64,000 nucleotides of DNA from assembly GCA_006739055.1 (NCBI GenBank), contig AP019702.1, forward strand, positions 1,674,501-1,738,500, written 5' to 3'. The notes beneath the pieces are model-generated. The model was not told the origin of the DNA, ran no database searches, and saw only the letters and a list, made by a program, of their open reading frames with translations. Position numbers and translations under genes: made by a program. Positions 20,158-55,034 of the stretch are shown here, one piece after another; positions within the stretch are counted from its first letter, which is position 1; every line of letters starts with the position of its first letter. This DNA is from Allostella vacuolata (GTDB lineage: Bacteria; Pseudomonadota; Alphaproteobacteria; ATCC43930; Allostellaceae).

Positions 20158-21630
20158 GCGGCAACCCTCTTCGCGTGGTCGAGTGCGGCCAGCGCGCGCT
20201 GGCGGGCGGCGGCATGGTCGACGATCGGCCAGGGATAGTCGCGGCCGAGCCGGATGCCGGCCCGGTGCAGCGCCTCGGCCGGCGCCGCCCACGGTTGGTG
20301 GATCCAGCGATCGTCGAGCGGGGCCAGCTCCGGCACGAACTGCCGGACATAGCGGCCGTCCGGATCGAATTTCTCTCCCTGCAGGACCGGGTTGAAGACG
20401 CGGAAGAACGGGGCGGCGTCCGCCCCGCAGCCGGCCACCCATTGCCAGTTGGCGGCATTGTTGGCGAGGTCGGCATCGACCAGCGTATCCCAGAACCACG
20501 CCTCGCCCGCCTGCCATGGCAGCAGCAGGTCCTTGACCAGGAACGAGGCTGCCACCATCCGCACCCGGTTGTGCATCCAGCCGGTCTGCCAGAGCTGGCG
20601 CATCCCGGCATCGACGATCGGGTAGCCGGTCCGGCCCTGCTGCCATGCGGCCAGCTGCTGCGGATCGTCGCGCCAGGGCATGCGGGCGAACTCGGGCCGC
20701 AGCGGTGCGTCTGCCAGGTCGCCATGGTGGAACAGCAGCTGGTGGCAGAACTCCCGCCAGCCGAGCTCGCGCAGGAAGGCCTCGCCGTCGGCATCCGCGG
20801 CCTCGACCGCGTTCCACACCGTGCGCGGGGAAACCTCGCCCATGTGCAGGTGGGGCGACAGCATCGAGGTGCCGTCGCGGTCGGGACGGTCGCGGCCGGT
20901 GCGATAGGCCGGCAGGGCCCGGTCCAGGAACGAGGCCAAGCGTTCGCGTGCCCCCGCCTCGCCCGGGGTCCAGGTGCGGCTGAGCCCGCCGGCCCAGTCG
21001 GGCCGGGTCGGCCGCAACGCCCAGTCGTCGAGGCGGTCGCCGGCCGGCGCCCGGTCGGGGGCCGCCATCCCGGACGGCACCGGCAGCGGCTGCCCGGGCC
21101 CGGGCAGCGATCGAAGGGCCCGCCAGAACGGCGTGAACACCTGATAGGGGCGTCCGCCGCCGGTCGTCACCTCCCACGGTTCGCGCAGGAGGGCGCCGTT
21201 GTGGCTCGAAGCCTCGATGCCGGCGGCGTGAAGGGCCACCTTGATCCCCTCGTCGCGCTGCCGGTTCCAGGGTTCGTAGCGTCGGTTCCACATGACGGCG
21301 GTGGCGCCGCTGTCCTGCACCAGGGCGGCAATCGCGGCCTCCGCGGGGCCGCGCCGCAGCACCAGCGGCAGGCCGAGCCGGGCGAGGTCGGCGGCCAGCG
21401 CCGACAGGCTGTGATGCAGCCACCAGCGCGAGGCGGCACCCCGCCGCCAGCCGCCCGGCGTCGCGTCGTCCAGGACGAACACCGGCAGCACCGGGGCGCC
21501 GCGGGCGGCGGCGGCGGCCAGCGCCGGGTTGTCGGCCGGGCGCAGGTCGCGCTCGAACCAGACGATCGTCGGGGCCGGGGGGCGGTACCGGGGCCGGGGC
21601 TTGCGGGGGCGGTCGGGATGGGGCGGGCAT
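20154..21630 (-). CDS. phr: Class I deoxyribodipyrimidine photolyase, N-terminal frameshift
   Basis: The C-terminal 445 codons encode a cryptochrome/photolyase with an MTHF/antenna domain and the FAD domain (GEVSPRTVW, WREFCHQLLFHHGD, DAGMRQLWQTGWMHNRVRM, NWQWVAGCGAD). It would repair UV cyclobutane dimers. The conserved start strand TIVWFERDLRPADNPAL lies upstream of the first in-frame ATG (21491) but has no start codon: the frame runs back to a TAG near 21640. A suitable ATG at 21630 (MPAPSRPPP) is one frame off. Removing one C from the six-C run at 21577-21582 joins them and gives about 491 residues, a normal length. Either a sequence error or a real frameshift is present. It heads the leftward stress operon. 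Confidence 0.85.
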
Positions 21631-21637
21631 GTACCCC

Positions 21638-21667
21638 GCTATTCGCGGTCCGGGCGACTTTGGATCA
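21638..21667 (-). promoter_or_regulatory. Candidate ECF (RpoE/ChrR-type) promoter before the photolyase operon
   Basis: On the minus strand TGATCC (21662-21667) is followed after 18 bases by AATAGC (21638-21643). TGATCC is the -35 sequence used by the Rhodobacter-type RpoE sigma factor that answers singlet oxygen and drives photolyase and cfa genes. The -10 match is weak. The predicted start falls at or next to the ATG at 21630, so the mRNA would be nearly leaderless. Confidence 0.45.
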
Positions 21668-21688
21668 CCCGGACCGCGCCGGAACGGA

Positions 21689-22372
21689 TCACGCCGCGGC
21701 GCGCAGCAGCTGGTCCCGGGGAAAGGCGAACAGGCGGTCGCGGCCGAGCAGGAAGGCGATGAAGCGCCGGCGCATGAGGCCGGCGATGGCCGGGTCGAGA
21801 ACGTCGAGCCCGCCGGTGAAGGCGCCCAGCGCCGGCAGCACCATCCGCTGGCCGTCGGTGACGAAGCAGCGGCCGGAGATACGCCGGGCGCTGGTCGCGA
21901 CGCTGGCCTTGGGGTGGTAGTGGCCGCTGACCTCGCCCTTCGCATCGGACCGGGCCTCGTGCCGGAAGGTGAGGGGCCCCAGCGTCAGCTCCGCCACCGC
22001 CCGCCCGCCGACGTCGGCGGGGATCTGCGGGTCATGGTTGCCGACCACCCAGATCCAATCGCGCCCCCGCACCAGGGCCGCCAGCCGGCCGCGATCGGCG
22101 GCGCCGAGGCGGCCCGGTCCGCCCGTGTCGTGGAAGCTGTCGCCCAGGCACACCACCATCCGCGGCTGCCAGCGCCGCACCAGCCGGCCCAGTTCGTCGA
22201 GCGTCGCCTGGGTGTCGTAGGGCGGCAGCAGGGTGCCGCGGCGGGCGAAGGACGAGCCCTTCTCCAGGTGGAGATCGGCCACGGCGAGCAGCCCGTGCTG
22301 CCGCCAGAACACCGCGCCGGATGGGTCGAGCAGCAACGGTGCGCCGTTGAGTTCGACCGGTGCTGCGACCAT
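21689..22372 (-). CDS. pdeM: Ligase-associated DNA damage response endonuclease PdeM
   Basis: This 227-residue calcineurin-like metallophosphoesterase carries the metal motifs VADLHLEKG (D-x-H), CLGDSFHD (GDxxHD), VVGNHDP (GNHD) and SGHYHPK (GHxH). This is the PdeM subgroup associated with bacterial DNA ligase, exonuclease and Lhr-type helicase in DNA damage repair. Its usual neighbours are in this window (lhr, exo, lig) but not adjacent. The ATG at 22372 gives MVAAPVELNG. The gene reads leftward and ends 58 bases before the photolyase start; whether both share a transcript is unclear, since a promoter candidate lies between. Confidence 0.9.
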   Translation of the reverse strand: MVAAPVELNGAPLLLDPSGAVFWRQHGLLAVADLHLEKGSSFARRGTLLPPYDTQATLDELGRLVRRWQPRMVVCLGDSFHDTGGPGRLGAADRGRLAALVRGRDWIWVVGNHDPQIPADVGGRAVAELTLGPLTFRHEARSDAKGEVSGHYHPKASVATSARRISGRCFVTDGQRMVLPALGAFTGGLDVLDPAIAGLMRRRFIAFLLGRDRLFAFPRDQLLRAAA

Positions 22373-22501
22373 ATTCGGTGCCTCGAGGTTGGAAGGGCCG
22401 CCGGTGAGTCTAACGGGATTCGGCCGGGCCGGCAGCGGCAGGGAACATTCCCGTTCTCCTGGACGTTGTATGGCAGTTTCCGCCTCCACCGGAGGAGTTT
22501 C

Positions 22502-22855
22502 ATGGTCAAGGTCGCGCTCGTCGCCGGGGTCGCCGCACTGTCGCTCGCGGCCTGTGCCCCCGGCTATTACGGTCCAAACGAAACCGCCGGCACGGCGGTC
22601 GGCGCGGTCGCCGGTGGCCTGATCGGATCGCAGTTCGGGCATGGCGGCGGTCGGGTGGCCGGTGCCGCCGTCGGCACGCTGCTCGGCGCCGCGGTCGGCA
22701 ACACCGTCGGTCGGTCGGCCGACCAGCGCGACTACTACAACAGCTATTATGGCTACGGGCCCTATCCGCCGCCGGGCTACGCGCCGCCGCCGGTCGTCTA
22801 CGCGCCGCCTCCGCCGCCCGGCTACTACTACTATCCGCCGCGCTACGCGTACTGA
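22502..22855 (+). CDS. Glycine-zipper lipoprotein
   Basis: This 117-residue protein has a lipoprotein signal with lipobox LSLAAC (Cys19), then a glycine-zipper helix pair (GTAVGAVAGGLIGSQFG and VAGAAVGTLLGAAVGNTVG). The tail is rich in Tyr, Pro and Gly. The zipper resembles the outer-membrane SlyB/Rick_17kDa-type motif that inserts in or packs against membranes. The gene has a strong GGAGGAG ribosome site. It lies 35 bases before the second small lipoprotein, probably the same transcript. The Tyr/Pro/Gly tail may be disordered. Confidence 0.78.
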   Translation: MVKVALVAGVAALSLAACAPGYYGPNETAGTAVGAVAGGLIGSQFGHGGGRVAGAAVGTLLGAAVGNTVGRSADQRDYYNSYYGYGPYPPPGYAPPPVVYAPPPPPGYYYYPPRYAY

Positions 22856-48082: not shown

Positions 48083-48140
48083 GGCAGGGCGCCGCGCCGC
48101 CCCGCGCGACCCGCGGGGCGGCCGGCAGGAAGTGGTGACG

Positions 48141-48614
48141 ATGGCAGCCGAGAAGGAACCGCAGCGGCAGGTGGCGCAGAACCGCCGCGCGCGCTTCGAC
48201 TACCACATCGACGAGACGCTCGAGGCCGGCATGGTGCTGTTCGGCAGCGAGGTGAAGTCGCTGCGCAAGGGCGCGGCCAGCATCGGCGAGGCCCATGCGG
48301 GCGAGCGCGACGGCGAACTCTACCTGTTCAACGCCTACATCCCGGAATATCCGGGCGCCAACCGCTTCAACCACGAGCCGCGGCGCGCCCGCAAGCTGCT
48401 GGTCCATCGCAAGGAGCTGAGCAAGCTGCTGGGCCAGGTGAAGCGCGAGGGCGTGACGCTGGTGCCGATGGCCTTCTATTTCAACGATCGCGGCATCGCC
48501 AAGGTGCAGATCGGGCTGGCTCGTGGCAAGAAGATGGCCGACAAGCGCAATGCCATCAAGGAACGCGAGTGGAACCGGGACAAGGCCCGTCTGATGCGGG
48601 CCAAGACGCTGTAG
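48141..48614 (+). CDS. smpB: SsrA-binding protein SmpB
   Basis: This 157-residue RNA-binding protein works with tmRNA to rescue stalled ribosomes. It has [55 protein letters not shown] and the basic C-terminal tail [20 protein letters not shown]. The ATG at 48141 follows AGGAAG; GTGs at 48132 and 48135 are alternatives. The tmRNA gene itself is not in this window. Confidence 0.96.
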
Positions 48615-48669: not shown

Positions 48670-49356
48670 ATGAAGCGAATCTGCAGCCCGGGCCGCAGCG
48701 GGGGCTGGGCCGGCCTGGCGGTCGGGGCGATGCTCCTGGCGGCCTGCGAGCCGGAGCCGCCGCCGGCGCTGCCGGTCCAGGTCCTGTCGACCCTGGAGCA
48801 GGGGCAGGCGGCCCTGCGGCTCGGCGATTTCGAGAACGCCGCCCGGCTGTGCCGGGAAGCCTCGCAGATGTCCAACCCCTCGCCCTGGGCTTTCGCCTGC
48901 CTGAGCGATGCCGAGCGCGGGCTCGGCCGCAAGCCGGAGGCCGAGCGGGCGCTCGAGGGCTATGTGGAGCGGGTGCCGAGCGATGTCGTGCGGCGGCACG
49001 CGCTGGCCCGGCTCTACATCGACGACGGCCGCTTTCCGCAGGCGCAGATCCAGCTCGACCGGGTGTCGCAGCTGGGCCTCGCGACCGCGGACACCTTCTT
49101 CCTGGTGGCGGAGATCTTCCGGCTGCAGGGCAATTGCCAGGCGGCGCTCGGCAACTACCGGCAGTCGCTGCGCATCGATCCCAACTACTCGCCGACCCAC
49201 GACGGCCTGGCCCGGGCGCGGCGGGAGATCTGTCCGCTCCGCCCGGTGGTCCGCCGGCCGCCGCCGAAGCCGGCCGAGCCGCCCCCCGCCGCTGCGCCGG
49301 CGCCGGCAGCGCCCGCCGCTGCGCCGGCGCCGGTACCGCCGAAGCCCGCATCGTAG
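48670..49356 (+). CDS. TPR lipoprotein, first of two paralogues
   Basis: This 228-residue protein has a lipoprotein signal with lipobox MLLAAC (Cys26). Helical repeats of tetratricopeptide type run from about residue 40 (LEQGQAALRLGDFENAARLC, then AFACLSDAERGLGRKPEAER, LARLYIDDGRFPQAQIQLDR and CQAALGNYRQSLRIDPNY). The tail is Pro/Ala-rich. It is closely related to the lipoprotein at 52556-53209, including RVSQLGLAT. It probably scaffolds other envelope proteins. It is the first of seven consecutive exported products. Confidence 0.8.
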   Translation: MKRICSPGRSGGWAGLAVGAMLLAACEPEPPPALPVQVLSTLEQGQAALRLGDFENAARLCREASQMSNPSPWAFACLSDAERGLGRKPEAERALEGYVERVPSDVVRRHALARLYIDDGRFPQAQIQLDRVSQLGLATADTFFLVAEIFRLQGNCQAALGNYRQSLRIDPNYSPTHDGLARARREICPLRPVVRRPPPKPAEPPPAAAPAPAAPAAAPAPVPPKPAS

Positions 49357-49408
49357 CGACCGCGGACCCGGCCGGTGCGGCCGGATCGCTTGGAATGGAG
49401 GGTTCCGC

Positions 49409-50077
49409 ATGCGCCTTGCCTGGTTGTCGGTCGCAGCGACGCTGCTCGCGGCCATGCCGTTCGATTCGGCCCTGTCCCCCGCTTCCGTCCAGGCCCAGGG
49501 CCTGGACCTGTCGGATCGGGGCAACCGCCCCCAGGCGGCCCCGCAGCGGGCGCCCGCCGGTGCCCTGATCGACCCCGCCTGCCGGCGCCGGCTCGCCAAC
49601 CGCAAGATCGCCATCGTCTTCACCGAGGTGCGCGAGGATGGCGGGCGCCTGATCCAGCAGCGCCGCTATGCGGGCGTGTTCCCGCTGGTCGCCGACGCCC
49701 TGCGCCGGGCCGGGATGACCGTCTATACCCAGGAGGAGATCAACCGCCAGGTGGCCCAGGAGGAGTTGCGCCGCTTCCTCAACAACGAGGCGGACGCCGC
49801 CCTGACAGCCTTCCAGCGACTTGGCGCGGCCTATGTGCTGCGGGCGACGATCGAAAGCCGCGCCATGATGAATCCGATGATCCGGGTCAAGCAGGTTTCC
49901 GTCAGCGTAAGTTTCGCGCTTTCCGCATCTTCTGGTGGTATCCTGGGGCAAGCGGAGATGTCGGAAGCCTCGTTCACCGGTGCCGACCCGCTGCCGATCG
50001 TGCGCGACATCTTGCGCGAGCAGATCGACGGCGTTGTCGCCGACCTCTACGCTAGCGTCTGCGCGCGGGGCCGCTGA
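49409..50077 (+). CDS. Periplasmic CsgG/TolB-N-like protein
   Basis: This 222-residue protein has a signal peptide (cleavage near VQAQG, residue 30). The mature domain begins RRLANRKIAIVFTEVREDGG and alternates alpha and beta, with a middle AQEELRRFLNNEADAALTAF and a C-terminal SFTGADPLPIVRDILREQI. The layout resembles the nucleotide-free CsgG/LpoB-like domains of envelope assembly proteins and the middle domain of FlgT, but similarity is only structural in impression. A GGAGGGTTCC-type ribosome site precedes the ATG. A run of ten G lies just after the stop. Confidence 0.65.
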   Translation: MRLAWLSVAATLLAAMPFDSALSPASVQAQGLDLSDRGNRPQAAPQRAPAGALIDPACRRRLANRKIAIVFTEVREDGGRLIQQRRYAGVFPLVADALRRAGMTVYTQEEINRQVAQEELRRFLNNEADAALTAFQRLGAAYVLRATIESRAMMNPMIRVKQVSVSVSFALSASSGGILGQAEMSEASFTGADPLPIVRDILREQIDGVVADLYASVCARGR

Positions 50078-50080
50078 ACT

Positions 50081-50090
50081 GGGGGGGGGG
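50081..50090. repeat. Ten-G homopolymer in an intergenic spacer
   Basis: An uninterrupted run of ten G sits three bases after the stop of the 49409-50077 gene. The 144-base spacer to the next gene contains no promoter that I can name. Such a tract is prone to slippage during replication. Confidence 0.6.
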
Positions 50091-50221
50091 CAGTACCCGC
50101 GGGGGGAGCCCGTCCGCGAAAATGTCCCTCGGGGATCGAACCTCGGGCACGGCGTCCGCGACATAGCGGTGGCGTGCCCCGGCCGGCGTGGGCGCGCGAC
50201 CGTTCGAGGGGGGACCGCAGG

Positions 50222-51685
50222 ATGCGCCGCAAGATCATCGCCGCCATGTCGATCATCGGCCTGCTGGCCGCGGCCGGACCGGCCGCCGCCCAGGGGCCAT
50301 CCGTTGCCCAGAGGACGGCTGCGCCGCCGGCAGCGGCGGCGCAGCAGACCATCATCGTATCGGCCGAGGGGCTGGCCGACCCCAAGGCGCCGCAATATGC
50401 GCGTGACCGCGGCATCCTGATCGACGACCTGCGCCGCGACGCGCGCCGCCAGGCGGTCGAGAAGGCGGTCGGCGTCTATGTCGACAGCCAGACCCTGATA
50501 CAGAACTACACCATGATCAGCGACCGGGTGCTGACCCGCGCCGACGGGCTGATCAAGCAGGTCATCAAGGAAAGCGATCCCTGGCTCGGCGACGACGGCT
50601 TCATGCACATGCTGCTGAAGGCCGAGGTCTACGTCGCGGGCGTCGAGGAGGCACTGAAGGCGATGTCGCGCGAACAGCGGGTGGCGCTGATCCGCGAGCG
50701 CGGCGACCCGCGCATCTCGGTCGCGATCTTCGCGGCCGATGCCGACCGCGCCTCGACCGTGGCCCCGCGCCGCTCGCAGATTGCCGAGAACATCCTGAAG
50801 GAGCGTATCCAGACCTTCGGCTACCGCGTCTGGTCCGAGGAGCATGCCGAGAAGCTCCGGGTCGAGCTGATGGCGCGCAGCCAGCTGGAAGGGCAGGCCG
50901 ACGTCACCCTGTCCGTTTCGCAGCAGCGTGCCTCGGACTTCTCGATCCTGGGCGAGGCCAAGTTCAAGACCCTGAGCGCGCGCCTGCCGTCGTCCGGCAT
51001 CACCATCAGCAAGTATGTCCTGACCTCGTGGACCGTCGCCTGCGTCGACAACGCCACCGGCCAGGAGATCTACTTCAACAACAAGGTGCCGACCGGCCGC
51101 AGCTGGAACGACGAGGACGTCGCGACCCGCGACATCGGCCAGCTGATCGGCCAGGAGTTCAGCCGCGACCTGTTCGAGAAGCACCTGTCGGCGCCGTCCC
51201 GCATCTTCCAGCTCCAGGTCATGGGCCTGCCCGACTACGACGCGGGCGAGCTGATGCGCAAGGAACTGATGGGCCTGCGCCCGGTGCTGAACGTCGACTT
51301 CCGCAACTTCGACGCCCAGGGCATGTCGCTGTTCGAGGTCGATTTCACCGGCGGCCGCAACGGCTTCGCCCGGATCATCAACGACACCATGGTCCGGCCG
51401 CTCAACGCCAAGCTCGGCGATCGCTCGTTCCGGGTCGTGTCGGCCCGCGGCGACCTGGTCCGGGTCACCTATTCTGCGCCCGACGGCAGCGACCTGGCCG
51501 ACCGGCTGCTGAAGCTGCCGCCGGCCTCGCTCGCCCAGGCTTCGCCCGAGCGCATCCGCGCGCTGGTCCAGTCCGAGGAGGCGATGGAGGCGGTGAAGAA
51601 GGTCAACCCCGAGGGCGTCGCCGCGGCGTCCGGCAAGCCGGCGACGCCGGCCAGCGACACCGTCCGGGCGATCAAGAACTTTTGA
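50222..51685 (+). CDS. Large periplasmic protein with FlgT-N/LPP20-like domain
   Basis: This 487-residue protein has a signal peptide (GLLAAAGPAAAQ, residue 24). Residues 40-150 resemble FlgT N-terminal/LPP20-type domains: IIVSAEGLADPKAPQYARDR, DDLRRDARRQAVEKAVGVYV and ISDRVLTRADGLIKQVIKES. The remainder has two further alpha/beta domains with LSVSQQRASDFSILGEAKFK and FEVDFTGGRNGFARIINDTM. Vibrio FlgT builds a flagellar ring, but no flagellar genes are here. It is probably a soluble or ring-forming envelope component working with the CsgG-type lipoprotein 87 bases downstream. Start by signal peptide and GGGGGGACC context. Confidence 0.7.
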   Translation: MRRKIIAAMSIIGLLAAAGPAAAQGPSVAQRTAAPPAAAAQQTIIVSAEGLADPKAPQYARDRGILIDDLRRDARRQAVEKAVGVYVDSQTLIQNYTMISDRVLTRADGLIKQVIKESDPWLGDDGFMHMLLKAEVYVAGVEEALKAMSREQRVALIRERGDPRISVAIFAADADRASTVAPRRSQIAENILKERIQTFGYRVWSEEHAEKLRVELMARSQLEGQADVTLSVSQQRASDFSILGEAKFKTLSARLPSSGITISKYVLTSWTVACVDNATGQEIYFNNKVPTGRSWNDEDVATRDIGQLIGQEFSRDLFEKHLSAPSRIFQLQVMGLPDYDAGELMRKELMGLRPVLNVDFRNFDAQGMSLFEVDFTGGRNGFARIINDTMVRPLNAKLGDRSFRVVSARGDLVRVTYSAPDGSDLADRLLKLPPASLAQASPERIRALVQSEEAMEAVKKVNPEGVAAASGKPATPASDTVRAIKNF

Positions 51686-51772
51686 ACCGGCCGTGAACCG
51701 GGCGCCGGCTTCCGGCGACCCAGGAATGTAGGCGGACTTCAAGCAATCCCGTTCGAAGCAGAGAGACCAGCG

Positions 51773-52552
51773 ATGAAGAAGATCGGTGTTTCAGTCCTGA
51801 CCGCGGCCGCCCTCCTGGCCAGCGGTTGCCAGCAGACCACCGGCGGCGGCAGCTCGGCCGCGGTCGCCCAGCAGTCGGCGCAGCAACAGATGTACCAGCC
51901 GGTCGGCTATGCCAACCAGAATGTCCGCGGCGTCGCGGTCCTGGTCCTGCCGGGCGACGTGCGCACCAGCCACGCCACCTTCAGCCAGCGCTTCGGACCC
52001 AACAACATCGCCGACTATGCCGAGCTCGAGCTCGGCCGCGCCAACTTCCCGGTGCTGGAGCGCCGCGAGCTCGGCCCGGTGATGCAGGAGATCGAGATCG
52101 CCTACAACCTGGGCGATCCGCGGGCCGCGCGCCGGCTCTTCCAGCTCGGCAAGTTCAAGACCACCAAGTACGTCCTGAAGTTCGACGTGCTGCGCGCCGA
52201 GCCGGTCGCCCAGGCCTCGTCGGGCTTCGACGGCCGCGCCATGGGCAACCTGCTGGGGGCGGCGATCGGCGGCCGCGGCGGCTATGCGGCCGGCACCGTC
52301 GCCGGCTCGGCCCAGACCAGCGAGGGGGCCCAGGTCTGGATCGTCGGCCTGCGCTACCGGATCATCGACGCCAGCACCACCGAGCAGGTGGCGACCGGCT
52401 ACTTCGAGCAGACCATGCAGCAGGGTGGGCAGAGCACGTCCTTCCTGGGGGTGAGCCAGGCCTCGGCCGGCGGCCAGACCCTCGACCAGCTCGTCCAGCG
52501 TCTCGTCCAACAGTCGGTCCAGGAGATCGACGCGCGTTACAAGGGGGTCTGA
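51773..52552 (+). CDS. CsgG/HfaB-family outer-membrane lipoprotein
   Basis: This 259-residue protein has a lipoprotein signal with lipobox LLASGC (Cys19). A CsgG-type domain follows: VAVLVLPGDVRTSHATFSQR, ELGRANFPVLERRELGPVMQ, TKYVLKFDVLRAEPVAQASS, a glycine-rich possible transmembrane hairpin (LLGAAIGGRGGYAAGTVAG) and YRIIDASTTEQVATGYFEQT. CsgG-family proteins form oligomeric outer-membrane pores for secretion of curli or holdfast attachment proteins. No CsgA, CsgE, CsgF, HfaA or HfaD genes are nearby. It is four bases upstream of the second TPR lipoprotein. Confidence 0.82.
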   Translation: MKKIGVSVLTAAALLASGCQQTTGGGSSAAVAQQSAQQQMYQPVGYANQNVRGVAVLVLPGDVRTSHATFSQRFGPNNIADYAELELGRANFPVLERRELGPVMQEIEIAYNLGDPRAARRLFQLGKFKTTKYVLKFDVLRAEPVAQASSGFDGRAMGNLLGAAIGGRGGYAAGTVAGSAQTSEGAQVWIVGLRYRIIDASTTEQVATGYFEQTMQQGGQSTSFLGVSQASAGGQTLDQLVQRLVQQSVQEIDARYKGV

Positions 52553-52555
52553 TCC

Positions 52556-53209
52556 ATGTCCCGCTTCACTCTCCGCTCGGTCGGCGTTTCGGCCGTCCTC
52601 GCCAGCGCGCTCCTCGTCTCCGCCTGCCAGCAGGAGACCACCTCCGGCCCGGTGATGGTCGTCCAGGGCCCGTCCGCCCTGGAGCAGGGCCTGTCGGCGC
52701 TGCGCATGGGCGATTTCGGCCGCGCCGCCGCCTGGTGCCGCCAGGCGACCGGCGACTACAACGCCGCTCCGCAGGCGTTTGCCTGCCTGGGCGACGCCGA
52801 GCACGGGCTGGGCAACCGGCCCGGCGCCGAGGCCGCCTGGCTCGCCTATCTCGACCGGGTGCCGAACGACGTCGTCCGCCGCCATGGGCTGGCCCGCTTC
52901 TACATGGAGGACGGTCGCCTGCCGCAGGCGCAGATGCAGCTCGACCGGGTGTCGCAGCTGGGCCTGGCGACCGCCGAGACCTTCTTCCTGGTGGGCGAGA
53001 TCTATCGCATCCAGGGCCAGTGCCAGGCCGCGCTCGGCAGCTACCAGCAGTCGCTGCGGCTCGACCCCGGCTACGGTCCGTCGCTGGACGGCCAGGATCG
53101 CGCCCGCCGCGAGATCTGCCCGCGCCAGCCGGCCCCCGTGCGCCGTGCGCCCCAGGTCCAGGACCGCATGACCGGCGGCGGTGCGGTGCTGCGTCCGGGC
53201 CAGTGGTGA
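52556..53209 (+). CDS. TPR lipoprotein, second paralogue
   Basis: This 217-residue protein has lipobox LLVSAC (Cys22) and TPR-like repeats (LEQGLSALRMGDFGRAAAWC, AFACLGDAEHGLGNRPGAEA, LARFYMEDGRLPQAQMQLDR, CQAALGSYQQSLRLDPGY). The core is the same as in the 48670-49356 product, including DRVSQLGLATA and FFLVGEIYRIQGQCQAALG. The tail differs: it is short and ends GGGAVLRPGQW. It is coupled to the CsgG gene and may be its accessory factor. Confidence 0.8.
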   Translation: MSRFTLRSVGVSAVLASALLVSACQQETTSGPVMVVQGPSALEQGLSALRMGDFGRAAAWCRQATGDYNAAPQAFACLGDAEHGLGNRPGAEAAWLAYLDRVPNDVVRRHGLARFYMEDGRLPQAQMQLDRVSQLGLATAETFFLVGEIYRIQGQCQAALGSYQQSLRLDPGYGPSLDGQDRARREICPRQPAPVRRAPQVQDRMTGGGAVLRPGQW

Positions 53210-53214
53210 TCGCG

Positions 53215-53553
53215 ATGAAGGCCGCCCTCTTCGCCCTTCTCGGGATCGTCGCCGTCATGCCGGCGCTGGCCGGCAGCAACGAGGCGCTGATGGAAGAGCG
53301 CCGGCGGGCGGCCTTCTCGCTGAACGAGAAGATCCTGGAGCGGCTCCGGCTCGCTCCGGAGGGGTCGCAGGTGATCCTTTCGGTCCGGGTCGGTCCCGGG
53401 TCGGGGGCGGATCGCGACTTCCGGATCGACGATCTGGTGGTGGTGGATGACCGGGCCCGGGCCGAGCGCGGCGAGGTGCTGCGCCGGCTCGGCCTCGGCG
53501 ATGACGGGATCGACCGGGTGCCCGCACCCGTGCCGGCCCCCAAGGTGCGTTGA
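53215..53553 (+). CDS. Small periplasmic protein of unknown function
   Basis: This 112-residue protein has a signal peptide (MKAALFALLGIVAVMPALAG). The mature part starts SNEALMEERRRAAFSLNEKI, a charged helix, then a beta region VILSVRVGPGSGADRDFRID and a terminal helix LRRLGLGDDGID. The ATG at 53215 has GGTGA upstream; a GTG at 53206 overlapping the previous stop is possible. I recognise no family. It lies between two envelope genes of the same direction, so it probably belongs to the same complex. Confidence 0.6.
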   Translation: MKAALFALLGIVAVMPALAGSNEALMEERRRAAFSLNEKILERLRLAPEGSQVILSVRVGPGSGADRDFRIDDLVVVDDRARAERGEVLRRLGLGDDGIDRVPAPVPAPKVR

Positions 53554-53578
53554 GAAGTCCATGAACGGGAGAATTTCG

Positions 53579-54421
53579 ATGCTGTCAGTGCGCAAGTCCG
53601 CTTGGATGTTGGCCGGCGCCGTCGCGCTGGCCGCCGTTGCCGGCCCCGCGGCCGCCCAGGGCAACAAGGAGCTCATGAGCATCCGCATGGCCCAGGCCAT
53701 GGCCACCCGCGGGATCACCGAATCGATCGTCGGCCTGAAGATCCGCAGCCAGGAGGTCTTCTTCTCCGACCGCTCCGGCGAGACCTCCGTCGACACCAAG
53801 ATCCAGGCGGCGGTCAAGGGCGTGAAGCATGGCCGGCCGAAGTACGACGCCGCCCGCGACATCGCCATCTCCGAGGCGACGATCACGCTCGGCGACGTGC
53901 GCAACGTCATCGGCAAGCGCGTCTCGTACAACAACGTGACGGTGCGCCGCATCGGCCTCGGCACCAACACCGAATCCTCGCGGCCCTTCCTGCAGGCCCT
54001 GCGCGCGGCCGAGATCGATGCCTACGACCAGCTCGCCCGGGCCATCGTCGGCCAGCAGGTGGACAGCCGCAGCCGCACCGAGAACATGGTCCTGGTCAGC
54101 GACGAGGTCCGCACCTCGGTCATGGCCGCGATCTGGGGCGCGGAGGTGAAGGATTACGGCTGGACCGAGGACGGCAACGCCTTCGTCAAGATGACGCTGG
54201 ACGTCCGCTACGCGAAGGACATCTTCGGCAACCACATCAAGTACACCGGCCCCAACGTGATCGAGGTGACGGGCCAGGGCGCCCAGCGCGACGACAGCCG
54301 CGCCACGATGGGCCAGCCGGGCCAGCCGGGCCGGCTCTACGACCCGGTCGACCTGAAGCTGCCGACCGGCGCCCCGGTCGCGCCCGAGCAACCGCAGACC
54401 GGCGGCTCGGTCATCCGCTGA
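53579..54421 (+). CDS. LPP20-like periplasmic protein
   Basis: This 280-residue protein has a signal peptide ending PAAAQ (residue 26). Its core contains FLQALRAAEIDAYDQLARAI followed by VGQQVDSRSRTENMVLVSDE and DGNAFVKMTLDVRYAKDIFG, the pattern of LPP20/FlgP-type domains. The Pro/Gln-rich C-terminus is disordered. No lipobox is seen. GGGAGA six bases before ATG 53579 supports that start; ATG 53561 also exists. It is the last gene of the seven-gene exported set and is followed by a strong hairpin. Confidence 0.7.
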   Translation: MLSVRKSAWMLAGAVALAAVAGPAAAQGNKELMSIRMAQAMATRGITESIVGLKIRSQEVFFSDRSGETSVDTKIQAAVKGVKHGRPKYDAARDIAISEATITLGDVRNVIGKRVSYNNVTVRRIGLGTNTESSRPFLQALRAAEIDAYDQLARAIVGQQVDSRSRTENMVLVSDEVRTSVMAAIWGAEVKDYGWTEDGNAFVKMTLDVRYAKDIFGNHIKYTGPNVIEVTGQGAQRDDSRATMGQPGQPGRLYDPVDLKLPTGAPVAPEQPQTGGSVIR

Positions 54422-54428
54422 TCGGCGA

Positions 54429-54462
54429 AGGCCGGCCTTCCCCGATGGGGGAGGGCCGGCCT
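54429..54462. terminator. Bidirectional hairpin ending the exported-protein cluster
   Basis: AGGCCGGCC (54429-54437) plus TTCCCC pairs with GGGGGA plus GGGCCGGCCT (54447-54462), allowing G-U pairs, around a 3-base loop. It lies between the stops of the LPP20-like gene and the convergent phosphatase gene. Confidence 0.65.
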
Positions 54463-54959
54463 CAGCCCGCCAGCGCCAGGACGTAGCGCTCCTGGTCGTC
54501 GGTCTCGATCGATCCCGGCCGCACATGGCGCACCAGCGCGATGGCGGCCGCCGGCTCGACGCCGCGCAGCACCAGCAGGCGCGCCGCCACCGTGCCGGTC
54601 CGCCCGAAGCCGCCGCGGCAATGCACCATCACCCGTTCGCCGCGGTCGAGCCGCGACAGGATCACCGACGCCGTCGCCTCCCACGACTGCTCGAACACCG
54701 CGTCGGGCGCCCGCAGGTCGAGGATCGGCAGATGGTGCCAATCCAGCCCCGCATCGCGCATCGCCTGGCCCAGATGGCCGATCCCCATCCATTCCAGTTC
54801 GTCCTGGGGCTGCAGCGTCACCACCGAGGCCGCTCCCCAGCTGCGGATCGCCGCCAGGTCGGCGGCCAGGTCGACGCGGCCCGGCACGGGTGCGAGGCCG
54901 ATGATCCCCGGCCGTTCCGGCAGGGCGAGGGAGGTGATGCTGTACGGGGCCAATGCCAT
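54462..54959 (-). CDS. Dual-specificity-type protein phosphatase
   Basis: This 165-residue cysteine phosphatase has the P-loop MVHCRGGFGRTGTVAARLL (C-x5-R) near residue 116, and the general-acid region near LPILDLRAPD (Asp). It resembles the CDKN3/dual-specificity or swiss-army-knife-type single-domain phosphatases of bacteria. The substrate could be a phosphoprotein or inositol phosphate; none is indicated. The start MALAPYSITSLALPERPG is the first plausible ATG. It is divergent from the VWA gene. Confidence 0.85.
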   Translation of the reverse strand: MALAPYSITSLALPERPGIIGLAPVPGRVDLAADLAAIRSWGAASVVTLQPQDELEWMGIGHLGQAMRDAGLDWHHLPILDLRAPDAVFEQSWEATASVILSRLDRGERVMVHCRGGFGRTGTVAARLLVLRGVEPAAAIALVRHVRPGSIETDDQERYVLALAG

Positions 54960-55034
54960 GTCGGGACCGGAAATCGAGGGAGGGAGCAGTCCATGGGCTC
55001 TCACGAGACGCCCATCCGTCCCATATAATAGGGC

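Follow-up and report, generated by a model that had tools for sequence, protein, structure and literature searches.

FlgP and FlgT form a ring around the flagellar L-ring and are known as accessories of the flagellar motor. Relatives of both, in company with a probable CsgG-fold lipoprotein, are encoded in a 64,000-nucleotide stretch (the window) of the genome of Stella vacuolata ATCC 43931 (AP019702), a star-shaped alphaproteobacterium whose sequence is a single contig of 5,834,761 bases. The seven genes in question, numbered g1 to g7 along the cluster (Table 1), are adjacent open reading frames (ORFs) on the + strand, lying 3' of smpB (48132-48614) and followed by a hairpin. According to PMC12222027, an SHS2-like fold is common to FlgP, Lpp20 and FlgT, and ring formation is tied to an insert between the helix and the second strand. 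Our judgement leans slightly towards g2-g7 encoding an outer-membrane assembly that resembles the H-ring (FlgP/FlgT-type), works without a flagellum and has a CsgG-like lipoprotein joined to it.

Conservation and selection within Stella

The original prediction of seven exported products, encoded one way from smpB to the hairpin, was borne out in coordinates, N-termini and strand. Each of the seven N-termini carries a hydrophobic stretch with a best 12-residue mean hydropathy of 2.0-2.8, against only 0.8-1.2 by the same measure for dapA, smpB and the next gene, and a lipobox is present in g1, g4 and g5; these export calls come from a crude hydropathy and motif test rather than from a signal-peptide predictor. 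Successive genes are separated by 52, 144, 87, 3, 5 and 7 bases, so that tight packing is limited to g4-g7. The predicted pair of paralogous TPR lipoproteins is also real, g1 and g5 being 57% identical.

The conserved unit is the six genes g2-g7, whose order is kept in three of the four genomes of the genus, those of S. vacuolata (G000), Stella sp. ATCC 35155 (G001) and S. humosa ATCC 43930 (G002), and g1, an additional copy of g5, exists as a separate gene only in G000 and G002. In the 17-kb stretch from ATCC 35155 only the g5 locus matches g1, and neither smpB nor dapA is found there, the upstream neighbourhood being different. Protein searches did not find the cluster in the fourth genome of the genus (G003, 570 contigs) or in 39 other searched genomes of the order, leaving matches in 3 of 43, all Stella; these searches covered 61 genomes including the order for g3 and g4 each, and 43 for g7. 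The g3 search gave one weak match elsewhere in the order (G006, E 9.5e-4, over residues 3-43, the signal-peptide end), which is taken as chance, and a g4 profile matched in two of 385 genomes of the class, both Stella. Conservation of gene order thus holds for six of the genes within the genus and fails across the order, although a four-gene core recurs beyond it, in two Chromatiaceae described below.

Between the Stella species the ratio of nonsynonymous to synonymous substitution (Ka/Ks) is 0.13-0.36 for all seven genes, with Ks of 0.27-0.80, which indicates purifying selection on the cluster. It is a real, conserved and selected gene set.

The FlgP-type and FlgT-like proteins

By sequence comparison, g7 is firmly assigned as a FlgP-type protein with two SHS2-like domains. 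A hidden Markov model (HMM) of 13 FlgP domains, drawn from flagellar loci only, picked it out among the 509 ORFs of the window at E 9e-18, with its two domains at 0.0046 and 1.2e-13, and alignment of g7 with FlgP by hhalign gave 97.7% (E 2e-12; reversed control 0.2%). In the PDB, five sequences named FlgP or Lipoprotein matched a profile built from homologues of g7 (E 1.5e-6 to 1.1e-5), the chains named FlgP standing at 2.8e-6 and 1.1e-5. The earlier description of this protein as LPP20-like had to be given up: hhalign with Lpp20-type proteins reached only 0.9%, the Pfam LPP20 match fell below its cut-off (20.4 vs 25.9 bits, E 7e-4), and g7 was not in the six best window ORFs shown for an Lpp20-type profile from 15 places. 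The span that holds the insert is 42 residues long in g7 and in seven of the 13 FlgP domains (five were not matched by the pattern and one was mis-matched).

The larger protein g3, with an SHS2-like N domain, a TolB/CsgG-like middle domain and a C-terminal alpha/beta region, appears to be a remote relative of FlgT, an assignment that is firm in two steps, via intermediates. A mixed set of 15 FlgT-like ORFs aligned with g3 at 97.0%. This set could be split into six that group with flagellar FlgT, three other SHS2 proteins (79.6% with g3), one from L046 that matches neither g3 nor flagellar FlgT, and five non-flagellar FlgT-like proteins from four loci (L021, L026, L042 and two in L040), which provide the link. 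These five align with g3 at 98.8% (E 6.4e-17, 382 columns; reversed control 0.2%) and with flagellar FlgT at 98.1% (E 1.2e-13, 240 columns), and their HMM finds g3 at E 2.6e-20, the next ORF of the window scoring 0.71. A g3 profile was what first brought them up, and the domain profile by which they were sorted had Stella sequences in the set over which it was iterated; the five include no Stella sequence. Pfam FlgT_N is touched by four of six scanned ORFs of the linking kind, at E 2e-6 to 2e-3, below cut-off. In a tree with some long branches, rooted at the midpoint for drawing only, the six g3 proteins come together as a clade (100/100) and lie outside the group (90/99) to which the 12 flagellar FlgT proteins belong. 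The FlgT-N-like call of the original prediction therefore has support by the two-step route and not by direct comparison.

The CsgG-like lipoprotein and the remaining products

The lipoprotein g4 probably has a CsgG fold, with moderate support. HMMs seeded with three Pfam-verified CsgG proteins, one of them from elsewhere in the window genome, and built in rounds without Stella cluster sequences, ranked it first of the window ORFs in all four rounds (E 5.5e-6, 1.2e-5, 6.7e-4 and 3.8e-4), and hhalign with CsgG gave 77.5% (reversed control 0.2%). After the CsgG-matching part come seven glycines four residues apart (154-178), a glycine zipper present in all three Stella proteins that may perhaps take the place of the CsgG membrane hairpins; six or more such glycines arose in 59 of 100,000 shuffles and occur in three of the 309 other window ORFs of 100 or more amino acids, many of which are not genes. 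An open frame on the + strand at 21296-22852 has eleven glycines four residues apart, in register.

A second CsgG-domain protein, of 376 amino acids and exported-looking, is encoded at about 958.2-959.3 kb of the genome (G000:C1; L039:7701-8831, - strand), next to an exported-looking protein of 225 amino acids, and exceeds both the Pfam CsgG and the Pfam FlgO cut-offs. Proteins like FlgO, FlgP and FlgT are therefore all encoded in a genome where FlgH was not found. The predicted co-occurrence of CsgG-related and FlgP/FlgT-related parts is supported, more weakly for the CsgG part, and markers of curli and of the flagellar L-ring are missing: FlgH was found in none of the four genus genomes (3 of 14 in the control), nor were curlin repeats (PF07012), which were detected in the E. 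coli control.

At E<=1 Pfam gives no family for g3 or g4, and for g2 and g6 only matches to unrelated families (E 0.2, DNA_meth_N, for g2 and 0.02 for g6). The placing of g2 as CsgG/TolB-N-like found no support, hhalign with CsgG giving 5.2% and the reversed control 2.0%; among the fetched loci, the only ones searched, it has no supported relative beyond Stella. The small protein g6 is 32-33% identical to longer Chromatiaceae proteins that share the pattern N..ALME...N...LE.L and hold the same place between TPR and FlgP-like genes. In a tblastn search the match scored E 5.9e-5 in the window and at 1.5e-4 to 2.8e-4 in the other Stella genomes, but a chance-looking match elsewhere in L009 scored 6.1e-5, so that the probable relation rests largely on position.

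Homologues of g5 with a similar C-terminal motif occur in the same two Chromatiaceae. Stella g5 (52556-53209) and the TPR lipoprotein of Thiohalocapsa (L016:7645-8277) end in TGGG..LxPxxW, with MGGG in a metagenome-assembled genome (MAG) of Chromatiaceae (L015:1-549), and the Chromatiaceae g6-like proteins (L016:8271-8945) also end in GGGAALLFW/YW. Such ends could be a docking tail.

Relatives outside the genus

A genome-wide g3 scan with named matches gave three loci, from Stella sp. ATCC 35155 (L014), the Chromatiaceae MAG and Thiohalocapsa marina, the last two being Gammaproteobacteria in which g3 is 55-57% identical. Both Chromatiaceae have the core order TPR lipoprotein, g6-like, g7-like, g3-like, and their stretches (21 and 3.5 kb) gave no flg match by blastp. 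In Thiohalocapsa (L016:129-7586) a gene with WD40, peptidoglycan-binding, PDZ and caspase domains lies directly upstream of this core, and on the opposite strand are CsgG-DUF4384, caspase-like and OmpA-like genes, the last two named by reading; the CsgG-DUF4384 gene is about 8.5 kb from g3. Across the phylum (398 genomes) the g3 search added one more full-length relative, in G525, and weak matches to FlgT-like ORFs, with any match at all in 13 genomes. In the order of G525 a g3 relative occurs in 1 of 48 genomes at E<=1e-20, and the class search over the same 48 genomes at E<=1e-8 adds only a partial match in G490. So sporadic a spread suggests horizontal transfer. Beside the G525 relative, at a contig end, a partial protein (L038:10735-11436) resembles the CsgG/TolB-N fold by eye; hhalign with CsgG gives only 24%.

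Each of the four loci that encode the five linking proteins also has a CsgG-type ORF; these loci belong to three genomes. The ORF is supported by Pfam in L021 and L026 and by the three-seed HMM in L026, L041/L021, L042 and L040 (E 2e-64 to 5e-4), the L026 protein being itself one of the seeds. None of 13 flagellar FlgP/FlgT loci has one at E<=1e-3, L073 coming closest at 0.0014. In one genome (G490, L040:4857-14390) a pair of FlgT-like proteins is encoded in a run of genes with exported-looking products, among which are also a TPR-like lipoprotein with a CsgG domain, a lipoprotein with an SLH domain and a protein with an SHS2 domain; blastp detected no flg gene in that stretch.

A survey of LPP20 matches took in 46 places in 398 genomes and gave 40 stretches, four places sharing a stretch with another and one near-copy (G573) and the window itself being left out. 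Comparison by blastp with 14 flg proteins of E. coli shows flg genes in 13 of the 40. Eleven of the 27 others contain an SHS2 ORF of 330 or more residues; in L076, L079 and L081 this is the LPP20 match itself, and in eight there is a separate FlgT-like ORF, and six of these eight fall with flagellar FlgT in the tree and could have flg genes farther out. One stretch of the 40 (L042) contains a CsgG-type ORF. On these counts, pairs of FlgP and FlgT away from flagella are not shown to be common.

Proposed assembly and alternatives

In the assembly that we favour, which would be periplasmic and associated with the outer membrane, g7, with its two tandem FlgP-type domains, and g3 would polymerise next to each other and build a disk or collar beneath that membrane. 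The CsgG-fold lipoprotein g4, anchored in that membrane and carrying the glycine-zipper insertion, would form or line the membrane-embedded centre, the TPR lipoproteins g5 (and g1) would gather the subunits at the membrane, and g6 and g2 would be accessory. At some fixed site in the envelope the assembly may serve to stabilise the outer membrane or to open it. The family relations are results of the sequence comparisons; that the parts touch one another and form a ring, that there is a pore, and what the assembly is for are what we infer. More tentatively, the genes might encode a free-standing envelope organelle, with tandem FlgP-type and FlgT-like proteins encircling g4 at the outer membrane as a ring or disk, that evolved apart from flagella and passed by horizontal transfer between star-shaped Alphaproteobacteria and purple sulfur bacteria. 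On that view a general ring toolkit would be older, the H-ring and basal disk of flagella would be one application of it, and its form outside flagella would be the one associated with CsgG-type lipoproteins.

Several results count against an assembly of this kind. Flagellar FlgT profiles alone miss g3 (HMM E 0.72 and 7.9), its direct hhalign with flagellar FlgT is 17.8%, and with the six ORFs that group with flagellar FlgT it is only 9.8%. The CsgG match of g4 is confined to roughly the first 75 columns and leaves out the half that spans the membrane. The family call of the original prediction has moderate support from profile rank and hhalign and none from Pfam CsgG (PF03783), which does not match g4. 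Neither g2 nor g4 has a match in the Chromatiaceae stretches (the MAG contig being only 3.5 kb), and the CsgG part is thus not an obligate neighbour of the core. Outside Stella and Chromatiaceae a CsgG-type ORF is present in only four of nine distinct loci with near full-length FlgT-like or g3-type proteins (L021/L041, L026, L040, L042, L020/L038, L024, L027, L029 and L033; several of the five without one are shorter than 4 kb). Insert spans of 36-44 residues in five Lpp20-type proteins of the same alignment mean that its length does not discriminate FlgP from Lpp20. FlgH was the sole flagellar marker searched genome-wide. Finally, structure models were poor, with a mean predicted local distance difference test score of 45 and 37 (the latter for g4), too few homologues being available, and no fold search gave a significant match.

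It is rather unlikely that the cluster is a CsgG-type export channel, in which g4 would be the pore for some substrate and the FlgP/FlgT-like and TPR proteins a periplasmic gate and pilots. The profile rank and lipobox of g4, the zipper kept in all three Stella genomes and the CsgG-type neighbour in all four loci of the FlgT-like group closest to flagellar FlgT would suit it; yet the match of g4 ends before the half of CsgG that spans the membrane, curlin repeats are missing from the four genus genomes, no obvious substrate gene could be read in the cluster, and the Chromatiaceae core is without g4, though Thiohalocapsa has its CsgG-DUF4384 gene some distance away. We hold it improbable that the CsgG/TolB-fold and TPR lipoproteins are Lpo-like regulators controlling peptidoglycan synthases through the wall and perhaps shaping prosthecae. 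One FlgT-like relative touches Pfam LpoB (19.9 bits, cut-off 22.3), and the cluster is present in all three complete genomes of star-shaped strains and went undetected in the fourth genome of the genus, but g4 has no LpoB match in Pfam. Moreover, FlgP-type ring proteins are not known as part of the Lpo system, nor are the Chromatiaceae with core relatives known to be star-shaped.

That the genes are a relic, H-ring genes surviving loss of the flagellum with no present role, would accord with the absence of detected FlgH and with the additional FlgO/CsgG-like protein elsewhere in the genome. It is made highly improbable by the low Ka/Ks of all seven genes over that range of Ks, by the separation of the g3 clade from flagellar FlgT and by the absence of blastp-detectable flg genes around the Chromatiaceae core. 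Least credible of all is a chance neighbourhood of unrelated exported proteins: the wider gaps among g1-g3 (52-144 bases) and the missing g1 at the ATCC 35155 locus are what it would predict, but six genes keep their order in three species, one with a different upstream neighbourhood, and four recur together in another class.

Features of the cluster and its 3' boundary

Table 1. Genes of the Stella vacuolata cluster and the hairpin that follows them (window coordinates).
Feature	Coordinates	Strand	Description
g1	48670-49356	+	TPR lipoprotein, paralogue of g5; TPR families over Pfam cut-off; lipobox LAAC
g2	49409-50077	+	Exported protein of 222 amino acids without assigned family; kept in three Stella genomes
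g3	50222-51685	+	Exported protein of 487 amino acids; distant FlgT relative
g4	51773-52552	+	Divergent, probably CsgG-fold lipoprotein with glycine zipper
g5	52556-53209	+	TPR lipoprotein, end TGGG..LxPGxW; TPR families over Pfam cut-off; lipobox VSAC
g6	53215-53553	+	Small exported product, probably related to longer proteins of Chromatiaceae
g7	53561-54421	+	Exported FlgP-type protein with two SHS2-like domains
Hairpin	54429-54462	+	15 pairs, between g7 and convergent phosphatase gene

The strong hairpin of the original prediction is genuine, with a stability of -51.1 kcal/mol over a 66-base stretch (z -5.0) that none of 200 shuffles equalled. It has no T-run, and a consensus terminator scan scored nothing at its site; probably it is a bidirectional terminator of that T-less kind, common to g7 and the convergent gene. 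The latter (54462-54989, - strand) encodes a dual-specificity phosphatase-like protein (PTP-SAK, 59.7 bits). S. humosa has a different palindrome at the corresponding place, and in ATCC 35155 none was obvious there by eye.

Comparison with described systems

No description of a non-flagellar FlgP/FlgT/CsgG cluster was found in the titles and abstract openings of a mainly open-access literature. A selected FlgP/FlgT-type set in a genus without detected FlgH suggests that a ring-building toolkit is used for another cell-envelope structure, and makes it testable which came first, a general role of these rings at the outer membrane, later taken over by flagella, or the flagellar one. For Stella, whose star shape has no known mechanism, as the mechanisms of complex bacterial shape in general remain unknown (PMC6687932), it offers a defined set of genes to work on.

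The flagellar H-ring of Vibrio and Shewanella (FlgO, FlgP, FlgT) resembles the Stella cluster in that FlgP-type and FlgT-like exported proteins are encoded together, with an FlgO/CsgG-like protein elsewhere in the S. vacuolata genome. Unlike the H-ring system, however, the genus has no detected FlgH, g7 lacks a lipobox and contains a pair of FlgP-type domains, g3 falls outside flagellar FlgT in the tree, and TPR lipoproteins, g4, g6 and g2 are added. In the Campylobacter basal disk (FlgP, FlgQ), FlgQ is described as resembling a repeat of two FlgP (PMC12222027), as g7 does, although Stella lacks a detected flagellar L-ring marker. With CsgG/curli and HfaB/holdfast secretion the cluster shares an outer-membrane lipoprotein that is CsgG-fold by profile; in contrast to those systems, g4 matches only the N-terminal part of the fold, with the glycine zipper after it, and the genus genomes contain no curlin repeat. 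The CsgG and FlgT-like loci of other Pseudomonadota (L040 and L041 in G490, L026 in G521, L042 in G642) have only remote sequence similarity to the Stella cluster and, in L040, other partners such as the SLH-domain lipoprotein and an AsmA-like protein (the latter by reading). Nevertheless, in stretches of 2.7-18 kb without a flg gene by blastp, they place a CsgG-type ORF beside a FlgT-like gene, and their FlgT-like proteins match g3 almost end to end.

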